Below, piece after piece: positions 1,243-1,870 of a DNA stretch of 64,000 nucleotides. How positions within the stretch are numbered: the stretch's first letter is position 1; every line of letters starts with the position of its first letter. The notes under the pieces were generated by a model, which was not told the origin of the DNA, made no database searches, and saw only the letters and a list, made by a program, of their open reading frames with translations. This DNA comes from Nocardia sp. NBC_00565. Lineage in GTDB: Bacteria > Actinomycetota > Actinomycetes > Mycobacteriales > Mycobacteriaceae. The stretch covers positions 4,030,001 through 4,094,000 of the forward strand of contig NZ_CP107785.1 in assembly GCF_036345915.1 (NCBI RefSeq), in the 5' to 3' direction. The translations under genes were made by a program, and so were the position numbers.

Positions 1243-1716
1243 CTAGGGCCGCAGCGCGCGCAGCGTCAACGCGGCGTCGAGCGCTGCCGCGGCGGCCTGT
1301 TCGCCCTTGTTCTCGGCGGAACCGGGCATCCCGGCCCTGTCCAGCGCCTCCTGCTCGTTATTGGTGGTCAGCACACCATTCGCGACGGGTGTGCCGGCAT
1401 CCAGCGACACCCGGGTCAGTCCGGCGGTCACCGCGTCGCAGACGTATTCGAAATGCGGTGTGCCACCGCGGATCACCACACCGAGCGCGACCACCGCGTC
1501 ATGCGAGCGGGCCAGCTCCTGGGCCACCACCGGCAGCTCCATCGCGCCCGCGCAGCGCACCACGGTGATGTGCTCGACGCCCGCGTCCTTGGCGACCTGC
1601 TCCGCGTTCGCGACCAGCGTGTCGCAGATCTGGGTGTGCCAGCGCGAGGCGACGATGCCCAGTTTCAGATCCTTGGCATCCGACAGCTCGAAGCTCGGTA
1701 CGCCGGTGCCACTCAT
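1243..1716 (-). CDS. ribH: 6,7-dimethyl-8-ribityllumazine synthase
   Basis: Lumazine synthase condenses 5-amino-6-ribitylaminouracil with 3,4-dihydroxy-2-butanone 4-phosphate, the penultimate step of riboflavin synthesis. The 157 residues are the usual length. Family signatures are visible: [10 protein letters not shown] near the start, [25 protein letters not shown] with the catalytic His, and [12 protein letters not shown]. The ATG start ([11 protein letters not shown]) overlaps the TGA of a 26-codon mini-ORF (ATGA), and a second copy of that mini-ORF lies further upstream. The GAGG in the end of the repeat serves as ribosome binding site 7 nt before the ATG. Translation is therefore probably coupled to the cassettes. 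Confidence 0.96.
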
Positions 1717-1793
1717 GCCTGCGCCTCGCTGGCGCTCGGCTCCGGCATGCGCGAAGCACGCTGTGACATGATTCGCTCACTTCGTTCGCTCAT
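1713..1793 (-). CDS. Mini-ORF of start-codon cassette, copy adjacent to ribH
   Basis: A 26-codon frame starting ATG AGC GAA and encoding MSERSER-I followed by [18 protein letters not shown]. Its TGA shares bases with the ribH ATG (ATGA), and its own ATG overlaps the TGA of the preceding identical mini-ORF. The peptide differs from the upstream copy at one residue (Ile for Ala at position 8). DNA identity between the copies is near total outside positions 1771-1790. No family is recognised. It is inferred to be a translated leader that hands ribosomes to ribH, not a functional protein. Confidence 0.5.
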
Positions 1794-1870
1794 GCCTGCG
1801 CCTCGCTGGCGCTCGGCTCCGGCATGCGCGAAGCACGCTGTGACATGGCTCGCTCGCTGCGCTCGCTCAT
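1714..1870 (-). repeat. Tandem 77-bp start-codon repeat (two copies)
   Basis: Two direct copies with a period of 77 bp (1714-1790 and 1791-1867) plus a third partial start-codon edge to 1870. The shared core reads, on the minus strand, CAGCGTGCTTCGCGCATGCC then GGAGCCGAGCGCCAGCGAGG. Copies differ only in the GAGCGxAGYGAGCGA segment. Each copy ends in the sequence that forms the next start codon, so tandem insertion always regenerates an ATG with a GAGG ahead of it. A relative lies at 33164-33247. Confidence 0.9.
1790..1870 (-). CDS. Mini-ORF of start-codon cassette, upstream copy
   Basis: First of two tandem 26-codon frames between ribBA and ribH. It begins ATG AGC GAG CGC and reads MSERSER-A, then [18 protein letters not shown], stop. 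An AAGGAA ribosome binding site lies 6 nt before its ATG, so this is where ribosomes would load. The TGA overlaps the ATG of the next copy. The ribBA stop is 54 nt upstream. A related frame precedes pyrB (33164-33247). Confidence 0.5.
   Translation of the reverse strand: MSERSERAMSQRASRMPEPSASEAQA

Follow-up and report, generated by a model that had tools for sequence, protein, structure and literature searches.

A MIRU-like repeat at ribH and many other gene starts of Nocardia, with a covarying hairpin over the next start codon

REP elements, which are moved by Y1 (RAYT) transposases, are short, hairpin-bearing repeats that occur in many copies and carry a fixed motif at the foot of the hairpin. 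Mycobacterial interspersed repetitive units (MIRUs; Supply 1997, as cited in PMC12548453, PMC4473831 and PMC2734929) are closer to the repeat reported here. These papers describe MIRUs as inserted at start codons with a coupling of -4 nt (PMC12548453) and as lacking dyad symmetries (PMC4473831), and give 41 MIRU locations for M. tuberculosis H37Rv (PMC2734929); the senX3-regX3 MIRUs comprise 77-bp units and one 53-bp unit, according to PMC2453075. A sequence-only reading of the DNA analysed here had taken the element for one of an undescribed kind, a view contradicted by these accounts of MIRUs (PMC12548453 and PMC4473831). In bicistronic coupling, a short upstream ORF brings ribosomes to the next start, where RNA structure then ceases to be a concern (PMC12548453).

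We analysed a stretch of 64,000 nucleotides of the Nocardia sp. NBC_00565 genome (the window). The gap between ribBA and ribH holds two direct 77-bp repeats, 94% identical, which a repeat finder placed at 1712-1788 and 1789-1865. Each copy carries one 26-codon ORF, MSERSER(A/I) followed by 18 residues, and its TGA overlaps the next ATG as ATGA (Table 1). Repeat finding and ORF reading thus agree with the initial description of two direct copies chained by ATGA into ribH. Both ribH-side copies are the sole matches in the window to a 36-base end motif (up to 3 mismatches; shuffle mean 0.00). The repeat finder also reported tandem arrays at 18293-18611, 12352-12422 and 23064-23183 of the window.

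Table 1 Features of the repeat copies and neighbouring genes in the window
Feature	Position	Strand	Basis
ribBA, upstream gene	1925..3169	-	NCBIfam NF006803, 748 bits, over cut-off
Native SD-like AGGA 5' of the first copy	1876..1879	-	sequence
First 77-bp copy; mini-ORF start at 1870	1794..1870	-	ORF and repeat finding
First-copy 5' hairpin module, in which tandem G.A alternates with short G-C pairs, with a GNA loop	1848..1870	-	family covariation; G.A read by eye
First-copy 3' hairpin, in which CATGCC (1826-1821) pairs with GGCATG (1796-1791); holds the second mini-ORF start codon	1791..1826	-	pairing and covariation
GAGG of the first copy	1801..1804	-	sequence
ATGA: first mini-ORF stop / second mini-ORF start	1790..1793	-	sequence
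Second 77-bp copy	1717..1793	-	ORF and repeat finding
5' hairpin module of the second copy	1771..1793	-	family covariation; G.A read by eye
Second-copy 3' hairpin, in which CATGCC (1749-1744) pairs with GGCATG (1719-1714); holds the ribH start codon	1714..1749	-	pairing and covariation
GAGG of the second copy, 7 nt 5' of the ribH ATG	1724..1727	-	sequence; genome-wide spacing
ATGA: second mini-ORF stop / ribH start	1713..1716	-	sequence
ribH (lumazine synthase), downstream gene	1243..1716	-	TIGR00114, 136 bits, over cut-off
Third element copy, single, 80 bp, directly 5' of pyrB	33168..33247	-	profile match; member of the covariation alignment
pyrB (aspartate carbamoyltransferase); start is the GTGA closing the third copy	32211..33167	-	NF002032, 394 bits, over cut-off

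A BLAST search with the copy pair against the genome that carries the window returned at least 42 matches (40 of 117 first-look candidates were scored). A 3'-end pattern with three mismatches allowed found 91 places there and none with a reversed control, and a 5'-half pattern with two mismatches found 82 against 24 in the control. In a profile search of 1.23 Mb of the 9.71 Mb, comprising the stretches around pattern matches and seven control stretches, 103 elements were identified at E up to 1e-3, 18 running into a further copy and 85 terminal; since the set was picked by patterns, this number is a lower bound. Seventy-two of the 103 are intact, i.e. reach E up to 1e-7 with the 5' end present, and measure 65-83 bp.

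The proposal that this is a small mobile repeat lying mainly at start codons and oriented with the gene was borne out by searches of this genome and of related ones, in which the copies cluster at start codons in the same direction as the genes. RTGA stands exactly at the expected end of 79 of the 85 terminal copies, and in 69 of the 85 a frame of 75 codons or more begins there that also ranks first among the six frames for codon usage (44 ATG, 25 GTG). Because the 3' pattern itself contains RTGAG, copies chosen by the 5'-half pattern alone were counted separately: 51 of 66 end at the RTG of a coding frame, while six more 5'-half matches had no element at the E threshold. A simple gene caller applied to 204 kb (the window plus control stretches) assigned 56 RTGA to starts, 28 to stops, 642 to other intergenic sites and 1893 to gene interiors; it under-calls (coding fraction 0.74), so the intergenic count is too high. 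Even allowing for the caller, gene starts are still far over-represented among the element sites.

The ribosome binding site that had been reported before the first copy is indeed present at ribH as an SD-like AGGA, but it does not extend to the family: the idea of an SD ahead of every first copy was rejected, with an SD-like motif at only 22 of 69. A TANNNT box lies 4-10 nt 5' of the RTG in 16 of the 69, and no copy has both; ordinary called starts show 77/153 and 6/153, respectively, from a caller that favours SD. Given these boxes, the element may have turned leaderless genes into SD-assisted coupled ones. Box-preceded first copies, the box being the one expected for leaderless transcripts, are seen for example at G000:C1 5934884 (-), 7145855 (-) and 8606740 (+). 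The GAGG inside the cassette, to which the starts behind the copies had been ascribed, is a family trait: 67 of the 72 intact copies carry it exactly 7 nt ahead of the RTG that follows.

RibH is present in all 118 genomes of the genus, and the 30 best loci were read. The ribH start is occupied in three of them, by two copies in the genome of the window and by one each in the two genomes with the best complete RibH matches (G009 and G045); in the other 27 it is empty, with a native ribosome binding site directly 5' of ATGAGYGGY. A recount by regular expression gave 28 empty, one filled and one not found, and misses the copy-bearing L178 and L179, which are one base off its terms. One genome with an empty ribH start, G084, has a copy at the stop codon of ribBA, GCGCAATGA, where relatives such as G113 read GCGCAGTGA. 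Because this copy sits at a stop-codon RTGA, the insertion target is, judging by the sequences, RTGA and not the start codon as such; the original view of the start codon as target also has against it the 16 of 85 terminal copies that lie away from called gene starts.

PyrB was found in 117 of the 118 genomes. Among 30 pyrB loci read, eight have full copies, two have remnants of 41 and 47 bp, 19 are without a recognisable copy, and in one (L219) the start was not located. Nine of the 19 copy-free loci have an RTGA shared by the stop of pyrR and the start of pyrB. Stop and start lie precisely 80 or 160 apart in five of the eight filled loci (G008, G041, G059, G066 and G080), which places the copies inside that overlap. 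The other three have an older stretch ahead of the copies, of 74 bp in G000 and of 41 bp in both G009 and G117. G008, with two copies, and G048, with none, are near siblings, their flanks being identical at 245/250 and 158/163 bases. The empty and filled ribH and pyrB sites, set side by side, demonstrate at the level of DNA sequence an exact insertion at RTGA that leaves RTGA at both ends.

The two pyrB remnants are both 2 mod 3 in length, as are the spacers of 41-50 bp in 4 of the 19 copy-free loci, which may be worn remnants as well. These shortened or worn pyrR-pyrB copies, of 41, 47 and perhaps 41-50 bp, lie at L208, L209, L210, L215 and L233-L236, where it looks as though the frame survives decay of the element.

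A length of 2 mod 3 is the class that preserves the overlap, and it is found in 62 of 72 intact elements of the genome that carries the window and in 50 of 56 distinct elements from 128 loci of other genomes, in keeping with the earlier idea that each insertion rebuilds the start and keeps the mini-ORF in frame; the remaining 10 of the 72 are out of frame. The mini-ORF is open through to the overlapping TGA in 60/72 and 50/56, respectively. Frame 0 lacks internal stops in 69/72 and 52/56, frame 1 in none of either set, and frame 2 in 30 and 31. This architecture suggests that the downstream gene is translationally coupled via the mini-ORF.

The end pattern occurs in 100 of 118 genus genomes, with 0 to 135 matches each and one control match overall. 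Copy number, which spans this range among species of one genus, rises with genome size (rho 0.47, uncorrected for kinship). A covariance model (R1), with 18 candidates scored per genome, gave matches at E up to 0.01 in at least 38 of 251 genomes of the family, several of the weak ones not being elements. Beyond the genus, strong matches came from genera g16 (best E 4.9e-10) and g13 (13 in one genome). Twelve of the 13 g13 loci were read (G129; one match at a contig end was left out): of the 12, ten have a length of 2 mod 3 and ten lead into a frame of 119 codons or longer. All three loci read among the four g16 matches (G158) are 2 mod 3. A blastn search of plasmids and phages with settings for distant similarity (low-complexity filter on) gave no match at E up to 0.001.

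R1 also matches, at E up to 0.01, 28 of the 198 genomes of a further genus, g29. This genus is probably Mycobacterium, since one of its genomes has a gene for what looks to us like a PE_PGRS-like protein. Of the 30 g29 loci read, 20 proved to be genuine elements, with a length of 2 mod 3 in 19; three run into a further copy, L277 was left unscored, and each of the remaining 16 opens a frame of 135 codons or more. The genes behind these copies include a histidinol-phosphatase (over cut-off) and a PknB-type kinase (below cut-off); ahead of the kinase, the ATGA that opens the copy is the end of the upstream gene. After reading, we set aside L147, L148, L150 and L151 as chance or other repeats, and L268, L269, L272, L275, L276, L278, L280, L281, L282 and L283 as being without RTGA at both ends. 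L148 (G154, genus g9) is a different tandem repeat of GGTACCGAGCGCAGCGAGGCACC units with a weak model match, which has the GAGCGCAGCGAG core of the element and lacks its RTGA ends.

At its 3' end the element forms a stem, a feature absent from the initial description, in which C-A-Y-G-N-C pairs with G-N'-C-R-T-G; the RTG is the start codon of the following frame. Among the copies that have RTGA where it is expected, 93 in number, pairing extends to 535 of 558 cells; redealing the 3' arms 2000 times gave 457.7 on average and never more than 476. In an alignment of 65 distinct copies, covering the stem plus inner GCC/GGC, pairing is 97.3% vs. 86.6% in shuffles and at most 46.2% in slid controls, double-change cells number 72 vs. 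26, and the covariation score is 0.435 vs. 0.225, none of the three being reached in 500 shuffles. Two of the five measures did not go beyond the shuffles for this stem, namely pairs changed on both sides (5 vs. 3.8; 84/500) and further pair types (15 vs. 13.9; 118/500). For the first base of the start codon, 38 copies have a T-A pair and 26 a C-G pair, i.e. the internal arm tracks the ATG or GTG of the next start.

Since the copies are related, shuffles overstate significance, and recurrence in separate genera weighs more. The start-codon stem is seen again outside this genome and also in a second genus; the probable Mycobacterium shows it more weakly. A separate count in other genomes gave 321 of 330 cells paired (shuffle mean 278.7, maximum 293); arm pairs in g13 include CATGC/GCATG, CATCC/GGATG and CATGG/CCATG; and in g29, with 11 distinct arm pairs, 68 of 77 cells are paired (shuffled mean 60.3; 1 of 2000 shuffles reaches this).

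The 5' module is also paired beyond shuffles (92.1% vs. 83.5%; double-change cells 39 vs. 11.7; 0/500 each), with the counts of pairs and pair types not exceeding them (227/500 and 95/500); its tandem G.A and GNA loop were read by eye from the consensus. Between the two modules the variable middle is a short hairpin as well, with a mean best stem of 3.84 vs. 2.97 in shuffles and 48 of 55 distinct copies above the shuffled mean. Predictions put the openness of the start codon at 0.148 for the 53 element starts and at 0.426 for 154 ordinary starts (p = 3e-11); that of the SD does not differ between the two groups (p = 0.17). At the three stem pairs outside the codon, G.T exceeds A.C by 16:3 and 8:0, which points to folding of the coding strand, either as RNA or as single-stranded DNA.

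We consider it probable, with some reserve, that this is a MIRU-type mobile repeat that inserts at RTGA, couples the gene through a mini-ORF and places the start codon in a stem. Insertion, as the empty and filled sites show, takes place at RTGA, usually that of a gene start codon or of a stop/start overlap, and leaves RTGA at both ends. The native start signals then stand ahead of a mini-ORF of 26-27 codons whose TGA, as read in the DNA, overlaps the RTG of the gene, and which would be translated. The last 36 nt, start codon included, could fold by pairing the gene's RTG with the internal CAY, a pairing visible as covariation and one that may form in the mRNA. Ribosomes translating the mini-ORF would melt the stem, halt at the overlapping TGA and re-initiate at RTG with the aid of GAGG, such that gene expression would persist via coupling and each tandem copy would add a link to the chain.

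More tentatively, the elements could be mobile translational locks spread across the mycobacteria-nocardia family, in which the arm matches the start (CAT to ATG, CAC to GTG) and the gene is read only after the mini-ORF; the same pairing of arm and RTGA might also guide insertion. If the lock reading is true, then MIRUs, a long-standing tool of tuberculosis typing with no known function, would turn out to be structured switches and not unstructured repeats.

A second reading, possible though in our view somewhat improbable, is that of a selfish mobile repeat. Its end hairpins would serve movement as single-stranded DNA, with RTGA as the site of cleavage or joining and the CAY arm as guide, and the frame would be kept only since other insertions are harmful. 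Both end hairpins start or finish with RTG(A), as this reading would have it, and the 5' hairpin (GCGNAGC, tandem G.A) resembles a DNA mini-hairpin that is unusually stable. The 5' and 3' R are identical in 45 of 56 first copies, with 10 of the other 11 reading G then A. All ten non-start terminal copies ending in RTGA keep 5-6 of the 6 stem pairs, so the stem need not serve gene expression and may serve movement, or both. Against a purely selfish repeat, conservation of the frame and the position at starts become mere side effects, and neutral copies at intergenic RTGA, expected to be common, are few.

Nor did a resident mobiliser come to light among the Y1 transposases and reverse transcriptases of the 118 genus genomes. 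Y1 (HUH) transposase (PF01797) was rejected as a candidate, since it is present in 19 of the 118 genomes and in 4 of 28 with at least 20 copies, with no association with copy number (p = 0.58). A Y1_Tnp gene does lie at G000:C1:8035241-8035606, about 300 bp before the element copy at 8035895 (+); because Y1 genes show no tie to copy number, this is probably chance. Reverse transcriptase (PF00078), in 40 of 118 genomes, is only loosely tied to copy number: median copies are 10.5 with it and 2 without (p = 0.0004), or 25 and 5 among genomes of at least 8 Mb (p = 0.007), both uncorrected for kinship, and it is absent from 12 of the 28 genomes with at least 20 copies.

That the element spreads not by transposition but through slippage and gene conversion at sequences combining an SD with a start (GAGG-N7-RTGAG) seems unlikely to us. 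This reading draws on the pyrB flank GAGGTGGAGTC-GTGAG, which equals the element's own 3' end over 16 bp in G059, and likewise in the empty G048, on G008, where the flank and both copies all read GAGGGGGAGTC, and on the near-identity between tandem copies of one array. That a flank can equal the element end offers a route for loss through slippage, and the reading accounts better for loss and changes in copy number than for first arrival. Across 56 first copies, however, the similarity of the 16-nt flank to the copy's own element end (0.340) is barely above that with swapped ends (mean 0.313, maximum 0.340 in 500 swaps), too weak for a general targeting signal, and most first copies have no SD-like motif before them.

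We give still less weight to retention of the cassettes by the host as a shared translational control of housekeeping genes. Copies do precede genes which we take, from their sequences, to be qcrB, nuoH, sdhA, hemA, lysS, metG and thrB (the NCBIfam check of neighbouring genes in this genome covered ribH, ribBA and pyrB only). Yet sister species do without a copy at the same gene, as in 27 of 30 ribH loci and in G048 as opposed to G008 at pyrB, and end-motif matches vary from 0 to 135 per genome within the genus. The two tandem copies at ribH might suggest a local tandem duplication that arose by chance, or else a leader peculiar to riboflavin genes; both can be dismissed, as the genome-wide search placed the element before at least 69 coding frames of varied proteins and Rfam families gave no match in 1000-3200 at E up to 1.

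Function and movement of the MIRU-type repeat can both be tested directly, thanks to its covarying stem at the start codon and to sister species in which the exact sites stand empty. The element shows how the start of a housekeeping gene can tolerate an insertion, and it bears on start-site annotation for many genes of the genomes that carry it.

Compared to known systems, the element is like REP in being short, of non-coding size, hairpin-bearing and present in many copies with a fixed short motif at the hairpin foot. It is unlike REP in lying at gene starts, in one orientation and with an open frame, and in having no link to Y1_Tnp. As in bicistronic coupling, its mini-ORF would deliver ribosomes to the next start; here, however, the whole device is a mobile repeat found at dozens of unrelated genes.

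The likeness to MIRUs, as described in the papers cited above, is greater. Both are short (77 bp also at senX3-regX3) and dispersed, singly and in tandem (18 of 103 here have a next copy), both have a small ORF overlapping the neighbouring ORFs (open to the TGA here in the proportions given above), and both are gene-directed at start codons or RTGA overlaps, as seen here from 69 of 85 terminal copies and from the empty and filled sites. The differences are that the element has covarying hairpins, one including the next start codon, whereas MIRUs are described as without dyad symmetry (PMC4473831), and that a genome may have up to 135 end-motif matches, as against the 41 locations in H37Rv given in PMC2734929. 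In its hairpins the element thus departs from the published description; the 3' stem is found in the probable Mycobacterium relatives too, and the statement on dyad symmetry may itself need review. A published MIRU4 typing primer matched 12 stretches of genome contigs, none mycobacterial by title; within the family it matched eight of 401 genomes, each with a single mismatch. The open literature that we searched, a scope outside which most subscription papers fall, yielded no description of such elements in Nocardia or of hairpins in MIRUs. The element would function like a MIRU and has relatives in probable Mycobacterium; going by the published descriptions of MIRUs, we class it as a variant of that kind and not as a proven MIRU. 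The kind itself is already known, and the trait for which the literature searched gave no precedent is the covarying 3' stem that encloses the next start codon.
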